Shown: piece after piece, positions 43,401 through 60,220 of the stretch | Layout: every line of letters begins with the position of its first letter | Position numbering within the stretch: position 1 is the first letter of the stretch | Assembly (NCBI GenBank): GCA_014239365.1 | Contig: JAAZZB010000031.1 | Span: 44,587-108,586 of the forward strand | DNA from: Verrucomicrobiia bacterium | GTDB taxonomy: Bacteria; Verrucomicrobiota; Verrucomicrobiia; Limisphaerales; UBA1100 | Direction: 5' to 3' | DNA: 64,000 nt | Notes under the pieces: generated by a model | What the model was told of the DNA's origin: nothing | Databases searched by the model: none | The model's input: only the letters and a program-made list of their open reading frames with translations | Program-made: the position numbers and the translations under genes

Positions 43401-43734
43401 TGGTGAGAAAGCCAACGCCCTTGTCCATGAGCTTGCCGAGCAGTTCCAAATTTTTCCCCTGCAACGCGGGGTGGCGTCCGCCGCCGTCGCTGTAAATCAC
43501 CACCGCATCGGCGCCATTGAAAACTGAATTATCCTTCGGCCAGCCGTTGAGGACGACGGTGCTCGCAACAAGATCGCTCGCGCCTTGCTTGAGGCATTTG
43601 GCGAGCAATTGAATGCCGGCGTTGTGCTCGTGCGAGAGCGGGCCGTGGCTCGGCGGGCCGGCGATCATCACGACCTTTTTGGGGGCGGCGAAGGCGGAGA
43701 CGGAAAAGGCGAGGAGGAAGATTAGTTTTTTCAT
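40402..43734 (-). CDS. ThuA-like + NPCBM-like + PVC membrane-bound dehydrogenase-type beta-propeller + HEAT repeats
   Basis: KKVVMIAGPPSHGPLSHEHNAGI (ThuA); GKSVSFGIGAHANSLVSYTLPKGHKFVKFNSTVGLDNG (NPCBM-like); VWVCEVINYRGHRNKRPEGDRILILEDTDGDGKAD propeller; HEAT-like C-terminus. Start at internal ATG 43734. Confidence 0.88.
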   Translation of the reverse strand: MKKLIFLLAFSVSAFAAPKKVVMIAGPPSHGPLSHEHNAGIQLLAKCLKQGASDLVASTVVLNGWPKDNSVFNGADAVVIYSDGGGRHPALQGKNLELLGKLMDKGVGFLTIHYAVEPTTAKGNKEFVAWQGGCFETHLSVNPHWTANFKKLPQHPITQGVKPFKANDEWYFHMRFAPGMKGVTPILSDVAPAATMKRGNGAHSGNPTVRKSVAAGESQHVAWAFERANGGRGFGFTGGHNHLNWANDDFRKTVLNAIVWVAKAEVPASGVPSKLVEKDLYENLDKKGGRRPKPKSNPGPKPTSKVTGPKATAVSKVLTKKSGPAKLEANIAGAKELHLVITDGGDGFSCDWADWAEPTLIDAAGMPTRLTSLKWKSAASGFGNVNVNKNAGGKPMRIAGKSVSFGIGAHANSLVSYTLPKGHKFVKFNSTVGLDNGGTDQGNCGNQASVQFHVFTEKPKFAAVSRVGGPGNAAGRTPADATKNLDVHPALQVELFAAEPMLLSPSNIDIDHRGRVWVCEVINYRGHRNKRPEGDRILILEDTDGDGKADKKKVFYQGRDIDSAHGVCVLGTVDGKNTRVIVSALDKVQVFTDVDGDDKADKKETLFSGISGAQHDHGIHQFMFGPDGRLYFNFGNSGKQLKDKNGKPVIDLAGNVVTANRKPYQEGMVFRCKLDGSEVETLGWNFRNNWMVTVDSFGTIWQSDNDDDGNRGVRINYVMEYGNYGYKDEFTGAGWKTKRTNLEKTIPLRHWHLNDPGVMPNLLQTGAGSPTGICVYEGDLLPKIFHGQLIHCDAGPSIVRAYPVKPSGAGYTATTVNILDGAKRDKWFRPSDVKVAPDGSLIVADWYDPGVGGHRMGDLDRGRLFRITPKGHKGYKQPKLDFITAKGLVKALENPNNSVRQIAFTELKNRKEATPILLKLLEDGSPPHRARALWLLAQNKGIRTPLLIKAAVDRDENIRALSIRVLRQLKLNTFISIRNKADDNSPVVRRECLIALRHHKSPEAPALWAYLANAHGGKDRWYLEALGLAADKQENKFFDAWLKTSPKLNTPAARDIIWRCRGTHAAKYLADIILDKATAEADKPRYLRALDFIPKGKERDKALARIALGL

Positions 43735-43750
43735 AAAGCGGTTTTTAATT

Positions 43751-43886
43751 TCCAATGACCAAAACCCAATGACCAATGAGCAATGACCAAACCCCAAGGA
43801 AATCCCAATGTCCAATGCCCAAGGAGTTGGCTTTGGTCATTTGGGCTTGGTCATTCCTTGGTCATTGGGGTTTGGGTGTTGGACAT
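43751..43886. repeat. 7-nt-periodic CAATGAC/CAAACCC inverted repeat
   Basis: CAATGAC-CAAAACC-CAATGAC-CAATGAG-CAATGAC-CAAACCC-... followed by a roughly complementary TTGGTCATTGGGG arm. Confidence 0.8.
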
Positions 43887-44615: not shown

Positions 44616-45461
44616 TTACTTGAACGCTTTCTTCAAAAACTTAAGTCCTTTGACGGCGATTTCTTCGCGCGTGGGTTCCATGCGCCGCCAGATGGCTGCG
44701 GCGCGGGCGATAACTTTCACATCCGTGGTGAAGCTCTCGATGACGACGTCGCCTTTGTAGCGGATGGATTTGAGCGCTTTGACGATGGGCGTCCAATCGA
44801 TGTGATCGTTGCCGGGAGTGCCGCGGTCGCTGCCGCACGCGTGAAAGTGGCCGAGCAATTTGCCGGCCTTGCGAATGGCGGCGGCTTGGTTTTTTTCCTC
44901 GATGTTCATATGGAAGGTGTCGAGGTGCAACTTGAGCACGGGGCTGTTGACGGCTTTGATGAGGCGCAGGCCTTTTTCGCAGGTGTTGAGAAAATCCGTC
45001 TCAAAACGGTTGAGTGGCTCGACGCAAATCTGCACGCCTTTTTTCTCGGCATAAGCGGCGAGCACTTTGAGATTTTTGACCACGAGCGCGAACTCGCGTT
45101 TTTGTTCCTTCGGCTCCACCGCATCGGCCTTGCCGACGACGCTGTAAACGGGCCCAATGAGCGACGGGCAACCGAGGTTTACCATGTGGTCGATAAGCGC
45201 TTTGCAGTATTTCATCGCCTCGCGTTGATCCTTGGCGCTGCCGCGAAAGTCGCGCCCGGGGCCCATGCACGCGCAGACCGAGCCGCACGCGAGCCCGTGT
45301 TTGTCGAGGGCTTTGCGAACCTTCACCGAGTCAATATGCTCGGGAGCCTCGATGGGAATCTCAATGGTGTCGAAGCCCCACTTCACAAACTTGGGAAAGA
45401 GGCTGGTGGATTTCGTCGTAAACGGCGAAGTGAATAAAAAGGAGTTAATGCCAAATCTCAT
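44616..45461 (-). CDS. Sugar phosphate isomerase/epimerase (xylose-isomerase-like TIM barrel)
   Basis: WGFDTIEIPIEAPEH; VQICVEPLNRFETDFLNT; LKLHLDTFHMNIEE; GHFHACGSDRGTPGNDHIDW. Confidence 0.9.
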   Translation of the reverse strand: MRFGINSFLFTSPFTTKSTSLFPKFVKWGFDTIEIPIEAPEHIDSVKVRKALDKHGLACGSVCACMGPGRDFRGSAKDQREAMKYCKALIDHMVNLGCPSLIGPVYSVVGKADAVEPKEQKREFALVVKNLKVLAAYAEKKGVQICVEPLNRFETDFLNTCEKGLRLIKAVNSPVLKLHLDTFHMNIEEKNQAAAIRKAGKLLGHFHACGSDRGTPGNDHIDWTPIVKALKSIRYKGDVVIESFTTDVKVIARAAAIWRRMEPTREEIAVKGLKFLKKAFK

Positions 45462-45510
45462 AACGTGAAGCGCCGATGCTAGGCAAAGGAGCTGGGAGGG
45501 TCAACGGATT

Positions 45511-46788
45511 TTATGAATGCCGCAGGGCCTCGATGGGGTCCAGCTCGGCGGCGCGGCGGGCGGGGTAAACGCCGAAGACGACGCCAACTACGGCGGAGAT
45601 GCCGAAGGCGAGTAGCACGGCGGGGAGGGTGACGATGGTTTTCATTTCGGCGAAATGTTCCACCGCGAAGGGCAACGCCACGCCGAGCACCACGCCCACC
45701 ACACCGCCGGCGATTGAGAGCACGACGGTCTCCACCAAAAACTGCGTGATGATTTGGCTTTTCTGCGCGCCGAGTGCGCGGCGGATGCCGATCTCGCGCG
45801 TGCGCTCGGTGACGGTCGCGAGCATAATATTCATAATCCCAATGCCGCCCACGATAAGGCTAATGCCGGCGATGGAGCCGAGTACGATGTTGAAAATGCG
45901 TTTGGTTTTTTCCGCCTGCCGCAGTAGCTCGAGCGGCACAATGATTTCGTAATCCATTTTTTTGTGCGCGGTTTTTAGCGCGGTGCGGATGGCGGGCACG
46001 GTGGCTTCCACTTGATCCACATCGGCCAGCTCCACCACCAACTCGTGCAGCTCCACGCGCTCGCGCATTGAGCCGCCGGTGGTGCGTTCGGTAAATAAAA
46101 TGCCCAAGCGCGCGTGCGCGGCGGCGAGCGGAACATAAACATTAGCATCAAGCGCACGGCCGACATTATCCTGCCCCGGCGCACGCGCGCTGGCGGCGGC
46201 CGTTTCGCGCACCACGCCGACGACCCGAAAAATCTGCCGGTTGTTCAGCTTCACTTCGCCGCGCAACGGATCGGAAATAGGAAAAAGTTTTGCGGCCATT
46301 GAATCGGTGATCACACACACGTTAAAGTGCGCATCCGTTGCGAGCAGGAAGCGGCCCGCAAGCAATTCCATTTGGCTCATCCGCAAGTGATTGGGTTGCG
46401 TGCCCCACACCGTGCCGGAGACTTCTTTGCGTCCGGCGCGAACGCTCATCCGATAGCGGCGCTTGGCCAGCGTGGCGGTGATGCGTGGGCGCAATGTTTC
46501 TTCCAGCAACTGAATGTCCGTCAATTTGAGCCCGTAATTGGCGGTGTAGGTTTGCAGACTGGCGGCGGTATTTTGGCCTTTCGGCGGCGGCACACTGCGG
46601 ATGATGACGTTGCGGCTGCCCAGTGCCCGGATAGATTCCTGCGCTTCAAAACTGGCGCCCTCGCCAATGGCGAGCATCGCGATCACGGAGCACACCCCAA
46701 AGATAATGCCCAGCATCGTAAGCAGCGAACGCATTTTGTGAAGCATCAAACTCTTGATGCCGAGATGAATGACGCGGATGAGGTTCAT
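45511..46788 (-). CDS. MacB-like ABC transporter permease (permease C)
   Basis: KMRSLLTMLGIIFGVCSVIAMLAIGEGASFEAQESIRALGSRNVIIRS; GGIGIMNIMLATVTERTREIGIRRALGA; ends PIEALRHS. Confidence 0.93.
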   Translation of the reverse strand: MNLIRVIHLGIKSLMLHKMRSLLTMLGIIFGVCSVIAMLAIGEGASFEAQESIRALGSRNVIIRSVPPPKGQNTAASLQTYTANYGLKLTDIQLLEETLRPRITATLAKRRYRMSVRAGRKEVSGTVWGTQPNHLRMSQMELLAGRFLLATDAHFNVCVITDSMAAKLFPISDPLRGEVKLNNRQIFRVVGVVRETAAASARAPGQDNVGRALDANVYVPLAAAHARLGILFTERTTGGSMRERVELHELVVELADVDQVEATVPAIRTALKTAHKKMDYEIIVPLELLRQAEKTKRIFNIVLGSIAGISLIVGGIGIMNIMLATVTERTREIGIRRALGAQKSQIITQFLVETVVLSIAGGVVGVVLGVALPFAVEHFAEMKTIVTLPAVLLAFGISAVVGVVFGVYPARRAAELDPIEALRHS

Positions 46789-46799
46789 ACGCAGCGGAC

Positions 46800-48509
46800 T
46801 TATCGCCCGGCCGCGGTTGGCGTTTTGCCTTTGTTGGGTTTGGAGGGCTCTGCGATTTTCGGCGACAATGAAACTTGGTCGCCCGCCGAAAGGCCTTTCC
46901 GGATTTCAATGAAGCGATCATTGAATTGTCCGGTTTCCACTGGAACGGTTTTCACGGTTTCGCCCCGCTTCACCTGCACCACTTTTTTTCCGCCGTGCGA
47001 GGTGACGCATTGCACGGGAATCTTGAGCACATCGTTCAGCTCGGCGATGACGATTTCCGCGCGTGCAGAAACGCCCGGCTTGAGATCCGCCGGCAGTCGG
47101 CCTTGTTTGTCCACGATCCAAACGTCCGTGTCGTACACCGAAATATTTTCATAATAGCGCCGCCGTTGATCCGGCGTGGGAGCCACTTTGCGCACGATGC
47201 CTTCAAACTCCATTTCCGGCAGTGAATCAATCCGCACCACAGCTTTGAGTCCGTTGCGCAGATGGCGCACATACGATTCGTGCACCTGCACGACGGCCAT
47301 GAGCTCGCTGACGTCCGGCAAATCGATGACGTTGTAGCCCTTGCGAATATCAGCGCCGAGCTTGATGTAGCTTTCGTTGGAGCGCGAATTGCTTTGCGCA
47401 AAAATCACAAGGCCATCCTGCGGGGCGCGCATTTCGGTCTTGATCAGTTCTTCACGGTAAAGCTCCAGCTTATTACGCTGTGCCTCCAGGCCGGCCTTGC
47501 GGCGGGCGACGACTTCCGTTTGGTTTTCGACGATGGCCTTGGATTTCCGAATCATCCGCGTTTCGCTCACGCGCATTTGGGCGAGGCGCGACTGGTTGCG
47601 CTTGGTCATTTGCGGGATGTCAAATCGCTCCAGCAGATCCTTTTGTTTCTTGTATTTGGTGATGAGATTTTTTTGTTTTTGAATGGTCAACTCATCCGCC
47701 TGCACTTCGAGGTCGGTGGCGTAGCCTTTGCTGCGAAGTTTTTTAGTGCTGACGAGCCGATCCTCGGCACGTTTGATTTCTTCCTCCGCAATATCGATAT
47801 CACCCTTCAACGCCAGCCGGGCCAATGGCGCGGTGCCTTCGATATATTTTGCCAAATCCTGTTCGGCGAATTCCACATTCAGTTCCGCCTGTCGATCGGC
47901 TTCGGCGGTTTCAATCTTGCGCAGCTCTAAATCTTTTTCCGCATTGCTTAAGTCGCGTTTGGCGTCCTCCACAGATTTAGTTTGGCTAAATAATCGTTCG
48001 CGCAAAAGTCCATCTTCAAACTTCACCAACAAATCGCCGGGCAATGACAGTGTTTGGCCCGGAACCAACTCAGCCCAATCCGTATCCGGATTGACGCGTT
48101 GAAGGGTTTCTTCGAACGCCACAATTTGCAACGAGTTGGCGCGGGCCGTTGTGCCGAGAGGTTGGGCGAGGGTCAGAAATTTTTGGGCAATCGTTTGCAG
48201 CGTGTCGCCGACCTCCACCTGATATTGGCGCGGGCCTTTGACGTAGGTGCCTTCATTGACCAGCTCAACGATGGTGCCGCCACCGGCGAGGGTGCAGCGT
48301 AGGTTCAGCTTGCGGGTGGAATCCAGCGCACCGCCTTCGGACACCGTCACGCGCAGATCGCCGCGCTGGGCGGTGATAAATTGCGTGACCACCGCCGGGC
48401 CGTCGGCGGGTTCGAACCATTTGGCACCCATAAACACGCTGGCCAAAACCACGATGATTACCGTGGTCCACGCCGGATGCCGTTGAATGAATGCGCGCGC
48501 TTTAGCCAT
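46800..48509 (-). CDS. HlyD/MacA-like membrane fusion protein with inserted LysM-like domain (adaptor C)
   Basis: Lipoyl half EGTYVKG, LysM-like YQVEVGDTLQTIAQKF...VNPDTDWAELVPGQTLSLPGDL, long coiled coil, barrel GLKAVVRIDSLPEMEFEGIVRKVAP. Confidence 0.88.
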   Translation of the reverse strand: MAKARAFIQRHPAWTTVIIVVLASVFMGAKWFEPADGPAVVTQFITAQRGDLRVTVSEGGALDSTRKLNLRCTLAGGGTIVELVNEGTYVKGPRQYQVEVGDTLQTIAQKFLTLAQPLGTTARANSLQIVAFEETLQRVNPDTDWAELVPGQTLSLPGDLLVKFEDGLLRERLFSQTKSVEDAKRDLSNAEKDLELRKIETAEADRQAELNVEFAEQDLAKYIEGTAPLARLALKGDIDIAEEEIKRAEDRLVSTKKLRSKGYATDLEVQADELTIQKQKNLITKYKKQKDLLERFDIPQMTKRNQSRLAQMRVSETRMIRKSKAIVENQTEVVARRKAGLEAQRNKLELYREELIKTEMRAPQDGLVIFAQSNSRSNESYIKLGADIRKGYNVIDLPDVSELMAVVQVHESYVRHLRNGLKAVVRIDSLPEMEFEGIVRKVAPTPDQRRRYYENISVYDTDVWIVDKQGRLPADLKPGVSARAEIVIAELNDVLKIPVQCVTSHGGKKVVQVKRGETVKTVPVETGQFNDRFIEIRKGLSAGDQVSLSPKIAEPSKPNKGKTPTAAGR

Positions 48510-48524
48510 TTCTTATTTCAAAAA

Positions 48525-50222
48525 TTATTTCTGTTCGCCGAACACTTGTCCGGGCGTGATCAGGTTGGGCAACTGCGCCCCGCCGAGCGGATTTACCGGC
48601 GCCACGCCACCGGGAATGGGCTGGTTTTTCAGCCAAAACTGTCCGGTTTCGACGCGCATAATACCCAAATTCTTCAACAAATTCCAGCGCGCAATGTGGT
48701 AGTTGACCATCGCGCCGGTCACCGCATTTTGCGCGCTGACGAGGTCGGCCTGCGCCTCGAGTTGATCGCGGATGTCGGCTTGATTTGCATCGAGCAAAAG
48801 CGGCATCACATTCACGCGCTGCTGGGCGAGGGCGAGGGCGTTTTGCTGGATGAAATAATTTTCGCGTTGTTGGGCCAGTTGCCGGACACCCTGCCGAATG
48901 GCCTCGCGCAAGCCATCCAGTTGCGTGGCTAAGGTGCGCAGTTGTTTTTCAAAATTAATGAGGCTCGTGCGGTACGCGTTGCGCTCGGTTAATTTATCGA
49001 ACGGCAAGCCCAGTTGCAGACCGGCGTTGGCCGCAAAATCTTCCGGCGAAAAGGAACTGCAAAATTGTTTGGTCAGCGAAGCATCGGCCACAAGGTTGAG
49101 GCTCGGTTGGAGGGCATCGGCCGACACACGCACTTTGCGTTGGGAATCCTCATACTTATCAATTTGGTTCAGCATATCGAGCCGATTAGTGACGGCGATG
49201 AGGTAGCCATTGCGCGCATTGAGCTCCAGCGGCGTGAGGCCCGTTTGCACCAGCTCGCGCAAAGCGGTGTCGTCCAGCTTGAGGTCCTCGCCCAGCGGCA
49301 GGCCGAGCCGTTGCTTGAAGGCATCCAGCGCCGCGCGGTAGCCCTCCACGGCGGCCAGATATTTTACGCGGGAAGACAGTTCCTCCTGCCGCGCCTGATC
49401 CACCTGAAACTTCGGCAACCGCTGCGCTTCCACCATCGCCTCCGCCCGCGCGCGGGAAGCCTGCAGATTTTGGTAGTTGCTGTAACTGTTGCGAACCGAA
49501 TCTTTTTTCTGAAGAATGCGGAAATATTCCGACACCGTTTCGATGGCAAACGTTTTTTGGTAATGGCTGAAATTGCGCACCGCATACACCACATCGCGCT
49601 CCGCCTGCGTGAGCACCTCCTCGGCGATGGCCCGCCCCGCGCCGCGCAGCAGCGGTTGAGTGAGTTTGAGCGTGATGTCCGGCACTTTGGGTTTGCCGTT
49701 GAAATAGAGCACGAGATCGTTTGCCAATGTGGCAGTGAGCGTGCCGCCGGTTTTGAATAGTTTGCTGAACGTAAGGTCGAGATCGGAATCGCCTTTGAGG
49801 CCTTTGTCCGATTCACGCACGATGCCGAGATCCGCCGTGCTTTTGGTGGGCTGCCACACAAACTTGTGCCGCGTGCCGGTGAGCGATAGCGCGGATAAAT
49901 AAAGCGTCTCCTTCTGCAATTGATACGCGCGGTTGTTGGTGATGGCCATCCCCAACGCGGCATTGAGAGTGAGCACACGGGCGTTGTCGTTGAAGCGCGC
50001 GGTGATAATTTCCGCGGGCGGAATCGCATCCGGCGCGCGACCGCTCCATTCAGTGCCGATACCGTAATCCTGCTCCGCGCCGAGCACATCCGTGCCGCGT
50101 TGTTTGAGAATGCCGTACACCTCGGCATCAGCGGCATCGCGAAACTTAGCCGCCTCGCAGCCGGCAAACAACAATGCCGCCAAGCTGAACGTGCCAATTA
50201 ATTTTGCGGTTAATTTTTCCAT
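48525..50222 (-). CDS. TolC-family outer membrane efflux lipoprotein (OMF B)
   Basis: LAALLFAGC lipobox; KLTQPLLRGAGRAIAEEVLTQAERDVVYAVRNFSHYQKTFAIETVSEYFRIL; coiled-coil helices. Confidence 0.88.
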   Translation of the reverse strand: MEKLTAKLIGTFSLAALLFAGCEAAKFRDAADAEVYGILKQRGTDVLGAEQDYGIGTEWSGRAPDAIPPAEIITARFNDNARVLTLNAALGMAITNNRAYQLQKETLYLSALSLTGTRHKFVWQPTKSTADLGIVRESDKGLKGDSDLDLTFSKLFKTGGTLTATLANDLVLYFNGKPKVPDITLKLTQPLLRGAGRAIAEEVLTQAERDVVYAVRNFSHYQKTFAIETVSEYFRILQKKDSVRNSYSNYQNLQASRARAEAMVEAQRLPKFQVDQARQEELSSRVKYLAAVEGYRAALDAFKQRLGLPLGEDLKLDDTALRELVQTGLTPLELNARNGYLIAVTNRLDMLNQIDKYEDSQRKVRVSADALQPSLNLVADASLTKQFCSSFSPEDFAANAGLQLGLPFDKLTERNAYRTSLINFEKQLRTLATQLDGLREAIRQGVRQLAQQRENYFIQQNALALAQQRVNVMPLLLDANQADIRDQLEAQADLVSAQNAVTGAMVNYHIARWNLLKNLGIMRVETGQFWLKNQPIPGGVAPVNPLGGAQLPNLITPGQVFGEQK

Positions 50223-50268: not shown

Positions 50269-51573
50269 TTAAGAATGCCGTAACGCCTCGATGGGGTCAA
50301 GCAAAGCAGCACGGCGTGCGGGATACATTCCAAAAATAATACCGACCACCATCGAGAGGCCGAAGGCAAGCAGGACGGACCAGTCGGTAACGAGAGTGGT
50401 GGTTTCGAGAATGTGATGGCGGAAGGCGGCGAATCCACAGCCACCAAGCACGCCGATGCTACCGCCGATGAGGCAGAGCATCAGAGTCTCGGTGAGGAAT
50501 TGGAGGGTGATGTCGCCGCGCGTGGCGCCGAGCGCGCGGCGGATGCCAATCTCCTGTGTGCGCTCGGTGACGGTCGCGAGCATAATGTTCATAATGCCAA
50601 TGCCGCCAACAAGCAACGAGATGCAGGCGATGTACATGAGCATGCGAGTGTCGCGCGCCTTCTGCGCCTTGAGGGTGTTGAGCTCGTCAATGGGCACTTG
50701 GATTTCGTAATCGACGACGCCTTTGCGGGTGGTGTTGAGCGCATCGCGAAGGCGCGGCAAGCTGGGAATGACCTGCTCGACCGAGGCGAATTCCACGCGG
50801 ATTTCCGAAAGCTCCACGCGCTCGGCCTTAAGCAAGCCGGGACTGCGATCGATGTTCTTTGTCGTGTACAGCGCCTTGAACGTGGAGAGCGGGATGTACA
50901 CATTGGAAGAGGTGGTGCGGCCGACTGAGTCTTTAGTTTGCGCCCGCTTAATGCTGTCAGTGCGTTCCTGCAAAATACCGACCACTTGGAACACCTGCGA
51001 AGATTCAAACCCGCGCATTACAATTTTCTGCAGCAACGGGTTTTGGCCGACAAAAAGTTTCTCCGCCAACTCCAGCGTGATGACGCAGGAAGAGATGTGG
51101 TTGATTTCCTCAAACTCATTTAGAAACCGACCCACCACAATGCGGGCCTGAGTAAACGCGGGGTAAGCCGGGAACGTGCCGATCAACTGGCAGTCGTGAT
51201 TGCGCATTCCGTGCATTGCGTTTTTGCGCTGGGCAAGAATGGGCAGGACGCGCTGCACGCCGGGCACGGTGTTGCGAATGCGCGCGGCGTCAGAATTTTT
51301 GAGGCCGTAAGTGGCCACCCACTCGTGTTCCATTCCCTGAATCTGCAGCTTGTCGGACAAGGGCTTGACGCTGCGGATGATGACGTTTTGCGCGCCGAGC
51401 GCCTTGATGGCTTCCTGCGCATCGTGGCTCGCGCCTTCGCCAATGGCGACGAGGGTAATGACCGCCCAGACGCCGATGATCATTCCCAGCATCGTGAGGC
51501 CGCTGCGCAGTTTATGGAGCCGAAGGCTTTTTAAGCCAACGGCGATAATGCGAATGAGGGAGAACCCGTACAC
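50269..51573 (-). CDS. MacB-like ABC transporter permease (permease B)
   Basis: KLRSGLTMLGMIIGVWAVITLVAIGEGASHDAQEAIKALGAQNVIIRS; GGIGIMNIMLATVTERTQEIGIRRALGA; ends PIEALRHS. Confidence 0.93.
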   Translation of the reverse strand: MYGFSLIRIIAVGLKSLRLHKLRSGLTMLGMIIGVWAVITLVAIGEGASHDAQEAIKALGAQNVIIRSVKPLSDKLQIQGMEHEWVATYGLKNSDAARIRNTVPGVQRVLPILAQRKNAMHGMRNHDCQLIGTFPAYPAFTQARIVVGRFLNEFEEINHISSCVITLELAEKLFVGQNPLLQKIVMRGFESSQVFQVVGILQERTDSIKRAQTKDSVGRTTSSNVYIPLSTFKALYTTKNIDRSPGLLKAERVELSEIRVEFASVEQVIPSLPRLRDALNTTRKGVVDYEIQVPIDELNTLKAQKARDTRMLMYIACISLLVGGIGIMNIMLATVTERTQEIGIRRALGATRGDITLQFLTETLMLCLIGGSIGVLGGCGFAAFRHHILETTTLVTDWSVLLAFGLSMVVGIIFGMYPARRAALLDPIEALRHS

Positions 51574-51595: not shown

Positions 51596-53344
51596 CTAAG
51601 GGCTGCCTTGGGTTTTGGGGTCGGATTCCGGCTGGCCTTTGTTGGCCACGGCTTCCTCGAGGTTTAGGTTTTCCGCCTCGGACAAAGGCGAGAGATGAAC
51701 CTGATCGCCGGGCCGCAAGCCTCGTCCGGTGCCCGGCTCATCCTTGATGGCGATAAATTGTTCGTCGTGGTACTCGATGGTGACCGGCCGCCATTCGGGT
51801 GTTTGTGAATTTGGGTTCAGCACCCAACAGCCCTGTTCGGCAAGACCGCCGCGCACGCGGGTAACCACGCATTGGTTGGGCACTTTGATGCGTTGATTTT
51901 CGCCAATGAGATTGATGACTTCAATTTCCACGCGCGCGCTCATCCCTTCGGAGGCAGTGCTGGGAAGCTTGTCGCTGTCGATGGTGATTTCGCCTTTGAA
52001 CACGATGGTTTCGCTGTGGCGGCGCTGATTGGTGTCCACCGTAGCGCCCAGCTCCGAGAGTGTTCCCGGGAGGGTCACGCCTTCAATTTCCACCCAGGCT
52101 TTCATGCCGCGCTGCAGTTGGCGGCGCTTGGCCTGGGGCACATCGAGTTTTATTTTGAGTGATTTTGTTCTGGGCAACTTCAGCAAATTACGGCCGCGAT
52201 GCACGCGCGCGCCATTCATAATGGGGCCGAACTCTTTGTAGCTTTCAGAAAAATAAACGACCTGTCCGCTGGCGGGCGCGTAGATTTTGGTGTTGGCCAT
52301 TTGCTCTTTGAGCGCCTCAAGTTTCTTATGCTGGAAGGCGAGGGTTTTGCCCATTGTGAACACCGTGGAATTGGCGTCCCGCAAGTCGGCGATGTTTTTG
52401 ACTTTGGTGCGTTCGATGTTCACCTTCGCCTCGGCTACGGCCAGTTCGCGAATGCTCAATAGCGAAACTTGGTCGTACTTCTGATACGCATCCAGTTGTG
52501 CCTGTGCCATCTCGATGTTGTGGCGAAACTCGGCAACTTTCTGTTGCTCCTCGCGCAGAGACATTTTTGACAGAAATTGTTTGGCCTCCAATTCCTTGAG
52601 CCACTTGAGCTTCGCCTCGGAGATGGAAACTTTGTTGGTGAGATTTGTGATTTGGCCTTTCAAATCTTTTACACGATTTTTCACCGTGCTGTTCCGCGCC
52701 TTATCGAGGTCGAGCACTGCGTTGGTGTAAGTATTATCCGCCACCTTGCGAGATAAGGCGGTGCTGTATTCCAGAATCTCCATATTGCCTTTTGCGCGGT
52801 TCAGGTTGTTCTCCGAATTTTGCAGGGCAATTTCCTGATTGCTAATGCGTTCCTCCAATCCCAATGGATCCAACACCACCAACAGATCACCGGGAATTTC
52901 AATCTCCTCGCCCGCGGGTAGATTATCCCAATCCAACTCGCGCTCCTCATTCAGCAACCGAATTGAAAGGGCATCCTTGTCCTGATATTTGGCGATGGAT
53001 TCCAAAGTGTCACCGGCTTTGAGGGTGTAACGCGTGTTGCCCTTCACCTCTGTGCCTTCCTCGACAATCGATTGGATGGTCGTGGCGCCTTCGAGACCGC
53101 ATTTGATTTCGACCACATCGGTGGACACCAACTCGCCGGTGAGTTTTACCGTGACTGAAAAATCGGACTTCTCCGCCTTCCAATAATCCAGCGCGTGTGT
53201 CTCCTCTTTTTTCTGGCTCAACAATTGTCGGCCACCCCAAACGCCGCCGGCCACCAAACCAATCACCGCCAGCAAGCCGAGCAGTTTGCCCAGCGTAAAC
53301 CCGCCGCGATTGGCCTTCGATTGATTTCGTTTTTTCATTGTCAT
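51596..53344 (-). CDS. HlyD/MacA-like membrane fusion protein with inserted LysM-like domain (adaptor B)
   Basis: EEGTEVKG, LysM-like YTLKAGDTLESIAKYQDKDALSIRLLNEERELDWDNLPAGEEIEIPGDL, coiled coil, barrel GMKAWVEIEGVTLPGTLSELG. Confidence 0.87.
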   Translation of the reverse strand: MTMKKRNQSKANRGGFTLGKLLGLLAVIGLVAGGVWGGRQLLSQKKEETHALDYWKAEKSDFSVTVKLTGELVSTDVVEIKCGLEGATTIQSIVEEGTEVKGNTRYTLKAGDTLESIAKYQDKDALSIRLLNEERELDWDNLPAGEEIEIPGDLLVVLDPLGLEERISNQEIALQNSENNLNRAKGNMEILEYSTALSRKVADNTYTNAVLDLDKARNSTVKNRVKDLKGQITNLTNKVSISEAKLKWLKELEAKQFLSKMSLREEQQKVAEFRHNIEMAQAQLDAYQKYDQVSLLSIRELAVAEAKVNIERTKVKNIADLRDANSTVFTMGKTLAFQHKKLEALKEQMANTKIYAPASGQVVYFSESYKEFGPIMNGARVHRGRNLLKLPRTKSLKIKLDVPQAKRRQLQRGMKAWVEIEGVTLPGTLSELGATVDTNQRRHSETIVFKGEITIDSDKLPSTASEGMSARVEIEVINLIGENQRIKVPNQCVVTRVRGGLAEQGCWVLNPNSQTPEWRPVTIEYHDEQFIAIKDEPGTGRGLRPGDQVHLSPLSEAENLNLEEAVANKGQPESDPKTQGSP

Positions 53345-53401: not shown

Positions 53402-55111
53402 TTATGAATGCCGCAGTGCCTCAATGGGATCGAGGTTGGCCGCGCGGAAGGCGGGGTAAATACCAAAGATGATTCCGATGAACACTGAAATTCCAAAGGC
53501 CAGCGCCACGGACCAGTTGGTGAATAGGATGGCCAGCTCGTACTGGTAATATTCCGCGAGAATCCACTGCGCCAAGAGCGGCGCGGACAAGCCGACTGCA
53601 ATGCCCAGCAACCCGCCGACCACGGAGAGCACGCTGGTTTCCACGAGGAACTGGCGGATGATGTGCAGTTTCTTCGCGCCCAACGCGCGGCGCACGCCGA
53701 TTTCGCTGGTGCGTTCGGTAACGGTCGCGAGCATAATATTCATAATGCCGATGCCGCCGACGAGGAGTGAAATGGACGCGATGGTGGCGAGCACGATGGT
53801 GAAGATGAGGTTGATCTTGCGCGCGGTGGCCAGCTCGTCAAGCGGCACGCGGATGATAAAATCTTCAACCTCTTTGTGCCCGTAACGCATGGTGCGCTCG
53901 AGCATTTTGGCGCCGGGGATGACGTGGCTCATATCATCGAACTGAACGCGCAGCCGATCAATCTGCACTTCCTTGGCAGAGATGCCGCCGGATTGGCGCT
54001 TGAATTCGCGGTCGCCATAATCCTGTCGCAAGGTGTGAAAGGGCACGTACACGTCGCCATAAAATTCATTGGCCTTGCCGAGGTTGCTTTCTTGATTGCC
54101 CATGTCCGCCTCCATCGCCATGCGCATCACGCGCCCGTGGGCGAGGTGGCCGGCGAGTTTGGCGTTGCCGCTTTCGTAGGCGTACACCCAGTTGTTGGGC
54201 GTCACGAAAAATTCCTGGCCGAATTGATCGGAAAACCATTTGGACTCCGGCGTGTCCTGATTATCCAAGCGTTCCTGAAACACAATGGGCGGCAGTTTGT
54301 TGAGCTCCAAAATTTTTGAATTGTTAATGGAATCTTCAAGCTCAATTACCTCGCCCACCATTTGTTCTTTTTTTGTGCCGCTCTTGAGTTTACTGCGGCG
54401 CGCTTCGATGATTTTTTGTTGCTTGGCCAAGCCCTCCTCCATCCGCGCCGCCGCCTCGCGCAACGCGGCCTCGTCGATTGCTCGTTGCTTTTGCTCTTTG
54501 ATATCCCGCAACAAATCCGCCGGCGTGCGTACGAGGCCCACCACCCGATAATAATATTTCCCGACTTTGATTTCATTGGTGAGCGGGTTTTGATACGCAA
54601 ATAATTCCGAGGCCAACGTGGTGGAGATGACGCACACGTTATTTTTGGTCATCTCATCCTCCTCGCTGAGGAAGCGCCCCATGACCACTTCGGCCTGACT
54701 GAATTCGAGGAAGTAAGGTGTGGTGCCATAAATGGCGCGGTCCTTTTTCACAAACCGATCGAAGGCCACATCTTCTCTCCGAATTTTCTCGGGCAACACG
54801 CGGATGACGCCGGCATCGCGGAGATCGGCAATGCGCGCGGCGTCGTCGTACTTTACACCGTACTTGGCCACGAAGCCGGTGCGTTGACCCTGTACTTCCT
54901 GCGCGATGGGTTTCTGGCTGGTGATAATAATGTTGATGGCGCCGAGTTTTTTTATTTCCTCCTCAGCCTTTTGTTTTTGGCCCTCACCAATGGCCAGCAT
55001 CGCGATCACCGAACACACGCCAAAGATGATGCCCAGCATCGTGAGCATTGAGCGCAGCGGATAAAGCATCAGGCTTTTGATGCCTTGGATGATGGAGCGA
55101 AATACAAACAT
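53402..55111 (-). CDS. MacB-like ABC transporter permease with large internal insertion (permease A)
   Basis: PLRSMLTMLGIIFGVCSVIAMLAIGEGQKQKAEEEIKKLGAINIIITS; GGIGIMNIMLATVTERTSEIGVRRALGA; extra ~135 aa in the periplasmic loop. Confidence 0.92.
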   Translation of the reverse strand: MFVFRSIIQGIKSLMLYPLRSMLTMLGIIFGVCSVIAMLAIGEGQKQKAEEEIKKLGAINIIITSQKPIAQEVQGQRTGFVAKYGVKYDDAARIADLRDAGVIRVLPEKIRREDVAFDRFVKKDRAIYGTTPYFLEFSQAEVVMGRFLSEEDEMTKNNVCVISTTLASELFAYQNPLTNEIKVGKYYYRVVGLVRTPADLLRDIKEQKQRAIDEAALREAAARMEEGLAKQQKIIEARRSKLKSGTKKEQMVGEVIELEDSINNSKILELNKLPPIVFQERLDNQDTPESKWFSDQFGQEFFVTPNNWVYAYESGNAKLAGHLAHGRVMRMAMEADMGNQESNLGKANEFYGDVYVPFHTLRQDYGDREFKRQSGGISAKEVQIDRLRVQFDDMSHVIPGAKMLERTMRYGHKEVEDFIIRVPLDELATARKINLIFTIVLATIASISLLVGGIGIMNIMLATVTERTSEIGVRRALGAKKLHIIRQFLVETSVLSVVGGLLGIAVGLSAPLLAQWILAEYYQYELAILFTNWSVALAFGISVFIGIIFGIYPAFRAANLDPIEALRHS

Positions 55112-55112
55112 G

Positions 55113-55841
55113 TCAGTTGTGCGCGTTGGTCACATCGCGATCCACAAGGCCGTCCTTGAGGTGGATGACGCGATCGGCACGATCGGCCACGTCCTGCCCG
55201 TGGGTGACGACCACGATGGTTTTGCCCTGCGCGTGCAGCGTGTCGAGCAATTCGAGGATTTCCTGGCCGGTTTTGGAATCGAGGTTGCCGGTGGGTTCAT
55301 CGGCCAGAATCATCAACGGATCATTCACCAAGCTCCGCGCCACGGCCACGCGCTGCTGTTGGCCGCCGGAAAGTTGCAGCGGCCGGTGGTCCAACCGATC
55401 GCCAAGGCCCACGAGCCGGGCCAGTTCCTCGCAATGCTCGCGATGGGCGGAGAGTTGTTTGCCCTGATAAAAAAGCGGCACGTGAATATTCTCCACCACG
55501 TCCAGCTGCGGGATGAGGTTGTACGATTGGAAAATAAATCCGATGCGTTGGCCGCGCACTTCGGAGAGGGCACTGTCGCTCATGAGCGACACATCCTGTT
55601 CGCCGAGAAAATATTGACCGTCTGTGGGTCGATCAAGACATCCGAGGATGTTGAGCATAGTGGATTTGCCTGAGCCGGAAGGCCCCATGATGGCGACGTA
55701 GCTGCCTTCCTTGATGTTGATATCCACCCCGGCCAATGCCGGCACCTTCACCTCGCCAAGGTCGTAAATCTTCGTCATCCCCTCGATGCGAATGATAGAG
55801 GTGCCGTTGCGATTACCGTTGCCGTTTGAGTTGGGTTCCAT
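55113..55841 (-). CDS. ABC transporter ATP-binding protein (MacB/LolD-type)
   Basis: AIMGPSGSGKSTMLNILGCLDRPTDG; LSGGQQQRVAVARSLVNDPLMILADEPTGNLDSKTGQE. Confidence 0.95.
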   Translation of the reverse strand: MEPNSNGNGNRNGTSIIRIEGMTKIYDLGEVKVPALAGVDINIKEGSYVAIMGPSGSGKSTMLNILGCLDRPTDGQYFLGEQDVSLMSDSALSEVRGQRIGFIFQSYNLIPQLDVVENIHVPLFYQGKQLSAHREHCEELARLVGLGDRLDHRPLQLSGGQQQRVAVARSLVNDPLMILADEPTGNLDSKTGQEILELLDTLHAQGKTIVVVTHGQDVADRADRVIHLKDGLVDRDVTNAHN

Positions 55842-55859: not shown

Positions 55860-58148
55860 TTAATTACCACTGCCGCCGCCTTGAAAGCGCTGCATCATTC
55901 GCCGCCGCGCGGCGTCGGCTTCGTCCTTGTTGATGCCGCCATCGCCGTCGGTGTCCAACGCGCTGAACTCACCCACAAACTGCCGCATCCGCTCTGGCAT
56001 TTTCGCGTATTCTTCTTCAGAAACTTTGCCGTCGCTATCGGTGTCCAAATCCATCAATGACCCGCTCCGACCGCCACCGCCGCCGCTGGGCCGATTGCCG
56101 CCACCTTCGCGACCGCCGCCGCCGCTAGGACGTTGGGAACGCAGTTCGGTATATTTTGCAAGTTGCTCTTTGGTGAGAAATTTTTCGAGGTCCGCCTGAA
56201 AATCCGTGCGCAATGTGCGCGCCGCGCTCCAATCACCACTCGAACGCATAGCAGCCATTTTATCGGCCATCTTTTTTGCAGCAGCAGCCCATTGGGTTTT
56301 CTGCTCGGCAGTGAGGCTGAGTTCGGCGGGCGGTTCACTGGAACGCCCGGAACTCCCGCCGGGCCGGCCCTTGCCTTGGCCTCCTTGGGTGGGCGGCGCT
56401 TTTTGGGCCGTGGTTGGGTTCGGTTCCACCGGCTTAGCGGGCTGAATGGTTTCGGGAAGATCTTCGAAAAAATCTTCGGCGTTAATTTGTTTGTAGCCGA
56501 AGAGGCCGCCGCCGACATTGAGCTCTTTGGCGTGCAATAGCGGGGCCTTAAGGATGACTTCACCCAATGCCAGGCCGCTGGTGATTTGAATGTGCGTCTG
56601 ATCGTAATAGCCGGTTTCCACGCGCACAGGCACGGGCTGATTTTTTTTGTTCATCTTGAAACACACCCGGCGGCCTTCGGTAGTGGTGACGACACTTTGG
56701 ATGGGCACCCGCAGGGTTTTGACTTTCTTGCCATCCACCGTGCGAATCTTAGGCAGGTTCGCCACAAAGATGCGGCAGGTGGCCGAGGCGCCGGGGCGAA
56801 TGTAGGAAGGCAGTGTATCGGAGATGGACACTTCGCATTTGAAAACTTTTTTATCACTGCCCCAGCGCTCGGCGGCGGCGGCCACGGGGGCCACGTAAGT
56901 AATCTCACCGCGGAAGGTGCGTTCGGCAATGGTGTCGATGCGGATTTGCACTTGCAAGCCGGGCTTCACCTGGTTAATGCGGCTCTCGTGAATCTTGAGT
57001 GTCACTTTCATTTTGGATAAATCCGGCAGATGAATAATGTCCTGTCCTTTGCGCAGGGTGGTGCCTTTTTCGATGATGCCGGAGGAGCCGCCATAGCGTG
57101 AGGATTCGCCCACGTGATACACCACCAACCCGCTGGCGGGGGCGAAGATGCGGCTCTTGTTCATCTGATCCTTCACCTCGGCGAGTTTTTCTGTCTCGAG
57201 CGAAAGTTTCTGCTTTTGGGTATCCACCTCTTCGGTGGCGGTGATCATATTATTGGTGGCGGTTTGCTCCACGGTGGTGAGCCCCAGCTCGGCCTGTTTG
57301 ATTTTGGAGTTATAATCCTGCTCCGATTTCGGGTACACAAACTTTTCATAAGCATCACTCTCACCCGCCAGCATCTTAATTTTGTGGCGGTACTCAGCCA
57401 CCTTTTGCTCCTCCTCGCGCAGAGACATTTTGGAGAGAAATTTCCGCTCCTCCAATTCCTTGAGCCATTTGAGCTTAGCCTCCGAAATGGAAACCTGATT
57501 GGAGAGGTTAGCCAATTGCCCGGCATAATCATCCCGCTTGAGCTGCGCGTCGCTGTCCTTGAATTTCTTGAGATCCAGCCGGGCAAAGTTCAGCATGATC
57601 TTCGCGTCATCAATATTTTGCTCGTTCTTGAGCTTTTGAATTTCCAGATCATTCTGCGATTTGGTCACGGAATTTTTCGCGGTACGCACCGAGATTTCCT
57701 GGCTGAGAATCCGATCCTTCAACGTTCCCGGATCCAGCTCCACCAATAAATCACCCGGAATATTAATGGTCTCATTGTTGGTGATCGCCTGTTCTAGATT
57801 TGGATTTACAGTGCGCAGATCCGCCTCCGACACCTTGTGCCGCGCGGCCAGCTTGGCGAGCGTGTCACCGGCTTCCGCCTGAACTTGGCGCGGCCCCTTC
57901 ACGTCGGAACCTTCATCCACAATGCTGACGATGGTGGAAGACCCATCCATTTCACTTTCCACCTTCACTGTATTTACCGCCACCAATTCGCCCCCTTCGG
58001 AAAAGGACACGATGAATTGTTCGTTCTCCACTTTCTCCGTGCCGTAGGTGCTGGAGATTTTCTCATTGTCGGAAAAATAATTACAGCCGGCCAAAGCCAA
58101 TGCAACGAGCGCGACGGCACTGACGGAAAATAAATGTGTGTGTTTCAT
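55860..58148 (-). CDS. HlyD/MacA-like membrane fusion lipoprotein with LysM-like domain and C-terminal EF-hand pair (adaptor A)
   Basis: LALAGC lipobox; LysM-like AEAGDTLAKLAARHKVSEADLRTVNPNLEQAITNNETINIPGDL; coiled coil; C-terminal DTDSDGKVSEEE and DTDGDGGINKDE. Confidence 0.88.
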   Translation of the reverse strand: MKHTHLFSVSAVALVALALAGCNYFSDNEKISSTYGTEKVENEQFIVSFSEGGELVAVNTVKVESEMDGSSTIVSIVDEGSDVKGPRQVQAEAGDTLAKLAARHKVSEADLRTVNPNLEQAITNNETINIPGDLLVELDPGTLKDRILSQEISVRTAKNSVTKSQNDLEIQKLKNEQNIDDAKIMLNFARLDLKKFKDSDAQLKRDDYAGQLANLSNQVSISEAKLKWLKELEERKFLSKMSLREEEQKVAEYRHKIKMLAGESDAYEKFVYPKSEQDYNSKIKQAELGLTTVEQTATNNMITATEEVDTQKQKLSLETEKLAEVKDQMNKSRIFAPASGLVVYHVGESSRYGGSSGIIEKGTTLRKGQDIIHLPDLSKMKVTLKIHESRINQVKPGLQVQIRIDTIAERTFRGEITYVAPVAAAAERWGSDKKVFKCEVSISDTLPSYIRPGASATCRIFVANLPKIRTVDGKKVKTLRVPIQSVVTTTEGRRVCFKMNKKNQPVPVRVETGYYDQTHIQITSGLALGEVILKAPLLHAKELNVGGGLFGYKQINAEDFFEDLPETIQPAKPVEPNPTTAQKAPPTQGGQGKGRPGGSSGRSSEPPAELSLTAEQKTQWAAAAKKMADKMAAMRSSGDWSAARTLRTDFQADLEKFLTKEQLAKYTELRSQRPSGGGGREGGGNRPSGGGGGRSGSLMDLDTDSDGKVSEEEYAKMPERMRQFVGEFSALDTDGDGGINKDEADAARRRMMQRFQGGGSGN

Positions 58149-58167: not shown

Positions 58168-59898
58168 TTAATTTCCTAAAATTTGAGCGGGCGGCAGTAC
58201 AGGCACATCCTGTCCTGAACCCGGCGGCAGAGGCACGGCCGGCGCCACGCCCGGGACCGGCTGGGGCTTCACCCAAAACTCATCCAAACCCGTGTTGAGA
58301 ATGCCCGCGTTATTGAGCAGCTTCAAGCGTTGAGTATGAAAATTAATGAGCGATTTGGTGACATCATTGCGCGCCTTGGCCACGGCGGTTTGGGCTTCGA
58401 GAATGTCGCGGGGCGACACGCGTTCGCCCGCGAGCATATCCAGCCGCGCTTTTTCCTCTTCGCGCATGGCGACGATCAGCGCTTTTTGGTTGATGGTGTA
58501 GGTTTGTTGATTCTGCGATAGCGTGCGGACGTTGGTGCGAATCTCATCGCGCAAATCATCGAGCGTTTTCATTAGGCTGCGCAGTTGTTGCTCAAAGGTA
58601 ATGCGGCTTTTCCGATAGGCGTTGCGCTCGGTGTGTTTGTCCAGCGGAAGATCCAGCGAGAGGCCGATTTTGCCGGAGTAATCGCCGAAGTCGAATGAGT
58701 TGCGATTGTAAAACTGATCCTTCAGCGAGTAATCCGCCACCACCGCGAGGCTCGGAAGGAGGTCGTTGGCGGCAACTTCCACCTTGCGTTTTTTGTCCTC
58801 GAACTGGTCGATGTTATTCAAAATATCCAGCCGATTGGTGAGCGCGAGTTGGAAGCCGTGCTTGTCGTTCAATGGCACCGGGCGCAGGCCAAACTGTTTG
58901 AGGTTGCCCAGCTCGGAATCATCGAGCACCACGGTTTCGCCCAGCGGCAGGTTGAGTTGTTTTTTGAAATCATCCAGCAACGCCTGATACGATTCGATGG
59001 CGTTAATGTAGCTGACCTTCGAGGAGTATTCCTGACGCAACGCCTGATCCAATTCGAATTGGCTGATCAGCTCACCCTGCAATCGTAGTTCCTGTTCCTG
59101 CCGAAACCGGATGCGATTCAGGTACAACTGGTATTGCACGCGCACCTCATCTTTTTTCTGGAGCAACTGCAGATACTCCGCAATCCGATCAACGAGAAAG
59201 GTTTTTTGATAACGCGAAAACGTGCGGATGGAATACACCAAATTGCGTTCGGATTGGGTGAGCAGTTCCTCGGCAAACTTCGCGCCGGCGTCCTTTAGCA
59301 ACGGCTGCGTGAGCGCGAGGGTGATGTCCGGAATCTTGGGGCCGCCGCCATTAAAAAAAAGCGTGAGGTCATTGGCCAACGTGGCCGTGAGGGTGCCACC
59401 GGTTTTCAGCGCTTTGCTAAGAGTCAGGGTGGCGTCGGATTCGGTGGTGTTAATGTTGCTGCTGGAACGGTTTCGACTGAGGTCGAGATTCGCTTTGGTG
59501 GGTTTGAGCGCGAATTTGTGCCGCTCGCCCGTGAGCGACAACGCGGAGAGATATAGCGTCTCGCGTTGCAGCTGATAATCACGGCTGCTGTTCACCGCCA
59601 TCTCCAGCGCCTTGGGCAGCGTCAGCAAATTAGTGCCATCGGAAAAGCGGTTGAGGATAATCTCCACCGAAGGAATTTCGCCGGGCGCGCGCTTGGAATA
59701 GGGTGTCTCCACCGCAAACTCCGTCTCCGCGCCGAACAGCTGCTGATGCCGTAGATTGAGGATATCATACACCTCCTCATCGGCTGCATCATGATGTTCC
59801 GCCGCATTTTTGCAGCCGGCAAAGCCCAAGGTGAATACGGCACACACGGCAAAATTCCGGAGAAAATTGCCCGAACAGCTCTTTCGTTGTTTTATCAT
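58168..59898 (-). CDS. TolC-family outer membrane efflux lipoprotein (OMF A)
   Basis: VFTLGFAGC lipobox; LALTQPLLKDAGAKFAEELLTQSERNLVYSIRTFSRYQKTFLVDRIAEYLQLL. Confidence 0.88.
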   Translation of the reverse strand: MIKQRKSCSGNFLRNFAVCAVFTLGFAGCKNAAEHHDAADEEVYDILNLRHQQLFGAETEFAVETPYSKRAPGEIPSVEIILNRFSDGTNLLTLPKALEMAVNSSRDYQLQRETLYLSALSLTGERHKFALKPTKANLDLSRNRSSSNINTTESDATLTLSKALKTGGTLTATLANDLTLFFNGGGPKIPDITLALTQPLLKDAGAKFAEELLTQSERNLVYSIRTFSRYQKTFLVDRIAEYLQLLQKKDEVRVQYQLYLNRIRFRQEQELRLQGELISQFELDQALRQEYSSKVSYINAIESYQALLDDFKKQLNLPLGETVVLDDSELGNLKQFGLRPVPLNDKHGFQLALTNRLDILNNIDQFEDKKRKVEVAANDLLPSLAVVADYSLKDQFYNRNSFDFGDYSGKIGLSLDLPLDKHTERNAYRKSRITFEQQLRSLMKTLDDLRDEIRTNVRTLSQNQQTYTINQKALIVAMREEEKARLDMLAGERVSPRDILEAQTAVAKARNDVTKSLINFHTQRLKLLNNAGILNTGLDEFWVKPQPVPGVAPAVPLPPGSGQDVPVLPPAQILGN

Positions 59899-60220
59899 CA
59901 GAAAAAATCGCAACACACACACTCACTCAGCGCAAGATAGACGCACAAATCTCGGAAGTGTTTCAAACATACCGAGGGCATAATGCCTTTGCGGATAGCG
60001 CGGCACAACAGTTATTCACTATTCGGCCAAGTTGTTCACAACTTTAGCAGAACCGAAGCGATCCGCTTGACACGTGCTGTATGCTTCGCGCCCGTTTACC
60101 GAGGGTTTTGGCGATTTTACTAATTTGTGGAAAAATAATTTCACTTTTTTGAAAGAAAACTTAGTTGAAACGCGAATATATAGTAGAGCGTCTATGTTTA
60201 CTCTTTAGCAAAAGCACAAT

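Follow-up and report, generated by a model that had tools for sequence, protein, structure and literature searches.

In this study, a window of 64,000 nucleotides from a Verrucomicrobiia bacterium was found to encode a MacA/HlyD-type periplasmic adaptor of 762 amino acids (adaptor A, 55860-58148, minus strand) that carries an LTxxQ-like helical hairpin and two canonical EF-hand loops at its C-terminus. It is tempting to speculate that adaptor A is a ring subunit with a Ca2+-loaded interaction or capture arm in a MacB-type (type VII) ABC tripartite system, a reading that we favor tentatively and to which we give somewhat less than an even chance. Taken singly, EF-hands, LTxxQ hairpins and adaptors of the MacA type are familiar elements, and neither EF-hand adaptors nor the combination of all three elements was found in the literature searched, which left most subscription journals and preprints outside.

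The core of adaptor A matches HlyD_D23 (E 2e-10, 40.8 bits against a cut-off of 30) and HlyD_3 (E 1.1e-8, 36.3 bits against 22.2) when the whole protein is scanned with Pfam, and a lipoyl, beta-barrel and alpha-hairpin core lies within these HlyD models. MacA proteins are its best structural matches (E. coli, 5nik and 9qgy; A. actinomycetemcomitans, 4dk0), with MacA in MacAB-TolC as the top Foldseek match (9qgy_G, E 2.3e-19), at about 14-16% identity. The NCBIfam MacA equivalog PRK11578 gives 17 bits against a cut-off of 342; judged by its sequence, adaptor A is thus MacA-like and not MacA proper. Compared with MacA, it has a much longer alpha-hairpin, a LysM insert, a lipobox-type N-terminus and a C-terminal LTxxQ and EF-hand arm of about 200 residues. 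The alpha-hairpin (57156-57722, minus strand) consists of two helices of about 92 residues each (143-234 and 240-331), with pLDDT mostly above 90 in the AlphaFold2 model. The signal peptide (58083-58148, minus strand) ends in a lipobox-like LALAGC, read by eye, with the Cys at residue 22, and adaptor A is a putative lipoprotein. LAGC is kept in the orthologues whose N-terminus is present, with SGC in one of them (G014).

The gene belongs to an operon on the minus strand with the order exit protein, adaptor A, ATPase, MacB permease, adaptor B, permease, exit protein, adaptor C, permease. A TolC-type outer-membrane exit protein (58168-59922, OEP E 1.2e-12) precedes adaptor A, and the ABC ATPase (55113-55841, ABC_tran E 1.6e-29) starts 18 bases past its stop codon. 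Downstream follow MacB-type permease 1, which has no fused ATPase (53402-55111, MacB_PCD E 1.7e-26, FtsX E 2e-18), adaptor B (51596-53344), permease 2 (50269-51573, MacB_PCD E 6.1e-28, FtsX E 1.1e-21), a second exit protein assigned by reading of its open reading frame, which resembles the first (48525-50222), adaptor C (46800-48509) and permease 3 (45511-46788, MacB_PCD E 2.2e-31, FtsX E 9.8e-20). An adaptor thus stands beside a MacB permease, an ABC ATPase and a TolC-type protein. This resembles MacAB-TolC, in which one operon likewise provides an adaptor between a MacB-type permease and a TolC-type exit duct; in contrast to MacAB, ATPase and permease are separate genes in the window. The initial annotation had called adaptor A an efflux adaptor. 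Its identity as an adaptor is well founded in the HlyD families, the top structural match and the MacB operon order, and the word efflux derives from the family.

All three adaptors carry a LysM domain (peptidoglycan-binding type) in the lipoyl half-barrel, at 57753-57890, 52865-53047 and 48015-48242. As isolated segments the inserts of A, B and C pass the Pfam cut-off of 20.9 with 24.5, 25.2 and 26.6 bits, and in whole-protein scans they score 19.8, 20.2 and 19.8 bits. In adaptor A the insert (residues about 87-132) is modeled as beta-alpha-alpha-beta with pLDDT of about 85. The LysM insert is absent from the adaptors of the wider order.

Adaptors B and C have neither an EF-hand nor an LTxxQ module and end 15-22 residues past the shared core, so that the tail is indeed particular to adaptor A in this genome. 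Among relatives, adaptor B of sister species has an LTxxQ-type tail (G004-G007 and G014), and the B-type adaptors of G015 and G016 (L022, L107, L108) have LTxxQ helices at two places, within the C-terminal domain and at the very end of the protein.

The tail of adaptor A begins with a Pro/Gly/Ser-rich linker (residues 556-609, 56322-56483, minus strand; pLDDT about 30-36 through residue 600), followed by the Spy/CpxP-like hairpin (residues 610-672, 56133-56321), a Gly-rich linker and the EF-hand pair (residues 697-757, 55878-56060). Three helices (614-637, 640-657 and 660-672) form the hairpin at pLDDT of about 90 in the AlphaFold2 model, and LTxEQ stands at both of its ends, as in the Spy/LTXXQ family (PF07813). 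The helical, LTxxQ-like character described in the initial annotation is borne out by the model and by likeness to PF07813; membership in that family is sub-threshold (19.3 bits for the hairpin alone against a cut-off of 24.3), and we call the hairpin LTxxQ-like only. Unlike Spy, it is fused to an adaptor and is known here from sequence and model. In this genome, secreted LTxxQ proteins that it resembles do reach the cut-off. Their locus (L004, G000:C4) encodes, side by side, three secreted proteins of LTxxQ type with 246, 247 and 142 amino acids, of which the first two were scanned.

EF loop 1, DTDSDGKVSEEE (residues 702-713), and loop 2, DTDGDGGINKDE (residues 732-743), lie exactly where they had been placed, at 56010-56045 and 55920-55955 on the minus strand. 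Both have 12 residues with acidic residues at positions 1, 3 and 5, Gly at 6, a hydrophobic residue at 8 and Glu at 12, in all six species compared. Pfam recognizes EF-hand_5 (29.0 bits, cut-off 25.9) and EF-hand_1 (26.5 bits, cut-off 25.4) in the whole protein, two stretches each, and the last 71 residues alone match EF-hand_5 (E 2.2e-9), EF-hand_1 (E 3.4e-8) and EF-hand_7 (E 5.1e-7). A phmmer search of PDB chains matched the segment to calmodulin (E 4.5e-6), to calcineurin B and to a bacterial calcium-binding protein. When the tail was shuffled, one loop-like match arose with p = 0.0026 and two loops in 0 of 20,000 trials; together with the Pfam scores and the conservation described below, this excludes a chance motif. 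A frame or annotation artefact is likewise excluded by the single open frame, the low dN/dS and the closely following ATPase gene. Three other readings of the loops fell below their cut-offs. The NCBIfam lanmodulin model gives 12.8 bits against 135 (E 0.093), the XopAW model scores 30 bits where 120 are required, and an orthologue matches Dockerin_1 at E 0.019. Lanmodulin has Pro at loop position 2, which the loops of adaptor A lack.

The helix entering loop 1, SLMDL, has only about five residues and stands straight after the Gly linker. Because it is so short, the first hand is more of an F-hand, which is then followed by a full EF-hand. Helices 711-730 and 741-756 are predicted with low confidence, the pair as a whole has pLDDT of about 40-67 in the AlphaFold2 models, and Foldseek with the tail alone returned no match. 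Structural confirmation of the EF-hand fold was thus not obtained, and both the fold and the placement of the arm stay predicted. The tail should be periplasmic, in agreement with the initial annotation.

Conservation of the loop aspartates had been named as a point on which the EF-hand assignment might fail, and they are conserved. Five orthologues carry an intact pair; four belong to the same genus and the fifth to a different genus in the family. Residues 1, 3 (D/N), 5, 6 and 12 of both loops are kept in these and in the window protein, the ligands being unchanged apart from D to N at position 3. A sixth orthologue (G019), a fragment at a contig end, keeps loop 2. In the window species and its four same-genus orthologues, dN/dS is 0.104 for the EF pair and 0.066 and 0.062 for the loops, close to the 0.089 of the core; the values for the LTxxQ hairpin (0.223) and the Gly linker (0.274) are higher. 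A Fisher test of amino-acid identity, on pairs that are not independent, also separates EF pair from hairpin (p 4e-11). By these sequence measures the EF pair is under purifying selection and constrained like the core. It is not indispensable, however, because one same-genus relative, G004 (L009), lacks it: its reading frame breaks off within the Gly-rich linker, after which just GRGGN and the stop codon follow, apparently a clean deletion at that linker. The pair thus appears selected for, yet dispensable in L009, and G004, if it can be cultured, would offer a natural comparison.

The adaptor alignment was run against 84,980 named genomes, which yielded 80 loci, nearly all from Verrucomicrobiota; the rest came from some Planctomycetota and further PVC records and from a single record with Terriglobia in its title. 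The order exit protein, adaptor, ATPase, MacB is nearly constant across the loci. Of the adaptor tails, 65 have 60 or more residues, and 48 of these contain a canonical EF loop, where shuffling predicts 0.1. The query alignment was rich in EF-tailed members, which biases this frequency somewhat towards them, although the searched DNA patterns come from the core. Elsewhere in the same loci EF loops are rare (ATPase 0/77, MacB 0/72, exit protein 1/80, other open reading frames 3/223). The EF tail is real, but regarding it as a feature of adaptor A was too narrow, as it is widespread in the MacB-operon adaptors of related bacteria. Adaptors from Akkermansiaceae-titled or Planctomycetota records, mostly short-tailed, have no EF loop. 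Potentially, Ca2+ might only fold the protein end, protect it from proteases or keep a Gly-rich arm soluble, with no role in transport. The Gly-rich flanks and the many relatives with single EF-hands in their tails agree with such a purely structural role, and many unrelated proteins that are secreted share this module. However, it leaves unexplained why EF-hands occur in 48 of 88 adaptor open reading frames of MacB operons, whereas EF and LTxxQ modules occur in 0 of 34 adaptors of RND pumps in the same order, and we consider it doubtful.

In a tree of adaptor cores, most EF tails fall into one large clade with few losses; the group of the window protein, with LTxxQ hairpin and EF pair, stands elsewhere, among LTxxQ-only relatives. 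A single ancestral EF tail was rejected, as grouping all EF bearers gives an AU p of 6.6e-6, on a quick tree with the simple LG+G4 model and with the EF group named after the sequences had been seen. The tails also differ in kind, with a 'PERM'-linked pair in the window's group and single 'FNREEMLKQFDKNGDGELDEEERAAMRE' hands in the large clade. These comparisons suggest at least two origins for the EF tails of adaptors. The small secreted Gly-rich proteins L340-L342 share the PERM-type linking helix of the EF pair at 38-49% identity. These proteins and L117 of this genome differ from adaptor A in being small and stand-alone. The donor of the EF pair was probably such a secreted Gly-rich EF-hand protein, and the pair would have been acquired by shuffling between Gly-rich linkers.

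The modules recur in further settings. In a class-wide search for the single-hand module, four MacA-type adaptors (L210, L211, L212 and L213) were found with an EF-hand inside the membrane-proximal domain. The same insertion region holds an LTxxQ-like hairpin with Gly-rich flanks in 20 of 45 adaptors of MacA proper (0.2 expected), which were chosen order-wide regardless of EF loops and have an EF loop in 0 of 45. The MacA-type adaptors surveyed for the hairpin were L218-L247 and L318-L337. By eye, 'NREEMRKRFESMTPEERESMRARFGGG' of L231 resembles 'NREEMLKRFDKNGDGELDEEERAAMR', with a short turn as if replacing the calcium loop; the flanking helices are common to L231 and the EF-bearing tails (NREEMRKRF...ERESMRARF), and it looks as though a TPEE turn had taken the place of the loop. 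Interconversion of EF cassette and LTxxQ-like hairpin is possible on this sequence likeness. A Gly-flanked EF cassette is also inserted in PQQ-propeller-like secreted proteins (L205 and L206; host domain named by eye), and the module stands at the ends of others (L216, L217 and L343). Since it is found in unrelated secreted proteins, the EF module is not pump-specific.

Two further observations concern the genome of the window (G000). An OppB/DppB-like ABC permease (L119, G000:C7, about 45204-46205, minus strand) has an EF pair, DWDGDGYVQRAE and DTNRDGQIDGLE, in a predicted periplasmic loop, and no relatives of it were found at E 1e-30 among 57 other genomes of the order. The genome is also rich in DxDxDG motifs: 100 copies of the coding pattern GAYNNNGAYNNNGAYGG were counted and 4 of a reversed-pattern control, and one such motif, DTDGDGKAD, lies in the window protein at 40402-43815.

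This mobility raises the question whether the tail is a shuffled cassette of little function, merely tolerated at the ends and in the loops of secreted proteins as Gly-rich linkers recombine. Its promiscuous occurrence, its low-complexity flanks and the apparently clean loss in L009 would fit such a view. However, the core-like constraint on the EF pair had already weakened it, the 17 long tails without the motif show only its absence and no decayed EF loop, and EF tails have been retained across the large clade. We therefore regard this explanation as quite improbable.

How might the arm work? If adaptor A is a MacA-like ring subunit of a MacB-type (type VII) tripartite system, a flexible arm of LTxxQ-like hairpin and EF pair would leave the membrane-proximal end of each adaptor subunit. 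In MacB-type pumps, periplasmic substrates enter through a cavity between MacA and MacB (PMC5985334), and the arm would lie close to the MacB periplasmic domains at this entrance. Spy, with two LTxxQ motifs, binds clients in a cradle-shaped dimer (PMC4791398), which by analogy suggests Spy-like client binding by the hairpin. Ca2+ would be bound in both loops and kept bound, and the loaded pair would form a small folded, charged, partly hydrophobic head. Head and hairpin together could form an arm that captures or otherwise interacts with periplasmic clients or MacB itself. Anatomy, selection on the EF pair, recurrence at the same adaptor end, the EF and LTxxQ-like insertions in MacA proper, the near-invariant operon, the absence from RND adaptors and the donor-like secreted proteins count for this proposal. 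Against it count the low pLDDT of the EF pair, the tail without a Foldseek match, the loss in L009, the EF module outside pumps and the sub-threshold LTxxQ score.

The initial annotation had instead proposed a Ca2+-responsive regulatory tail, in which changes in periplasmic Ca2+ would switch the tail between states and thereby start or stop the pump. In line with this, both loops are canonical, all their ligands are conserved, and EF-hands have been gained repeatedly at the same end of adaptors. However, the operon showed no regulatory partner, and one relative has lost the EF pair. Seawater contains about 10 mM Ca2+, and several relatives appear marine from their isolate names. The closest comparison is EfhP of Pseudomonas aeruginosa, which, like other periplasmic EF-hand proteins and adaptor A, has two canonical EF loops and a predicted periplasmic location (PMC9132961); EfhP is a free-standing Ca2+ sensor, whereas the pair of adaptor A is fused to a pump adaptor. 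Ca2+ raises the surface hydrophobicity of EfhP, which would suit a switch, but it binds Ca2+ with a Kd of 13.7 uM (PMC9132961), and a tail of similar affinity would be saturated at millimolar Ca2+ with little sensing range. With periplasmic Ca2+ far above a micromolar Kd, the EF pair would always be loaded. Because the comparable EfhP binds in the micromolar range, Ca2+-responsive regulation is no more likely than a permanently loaded arm with a structural or capture role. Regulation is thus disfavored unless the affinity is much lower here, and we consider it unlikely.

Adaptors are usually viewed as connectors. A conserved calcium-binding or chaperone-like arm, acquired anew independently, would give one pump class a client-binding or ion-dependent element, and the EF arm may offer a handle on periplasmic substrate choice by MacB-type systems. 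The tails also show bacterial EF-hands used as plug-in cassettes on transport machinery, beyond their role as stand-alone sensors. In a broader and rather speculative proposal, for which we see only a modest chance, MacB-type pumps of Verrucomicrobiota, and not RND pumps, would have gained Ca2+-loaded EF-hand and Spy-like arms several times independently at the membrane-proximal end of their adaptors, and these arms would collect or retain clients from the periplasm at the entrance of the pump. If true, such adaptor-borne, metal-dependent substrate-capture modules would represent a class not described before.
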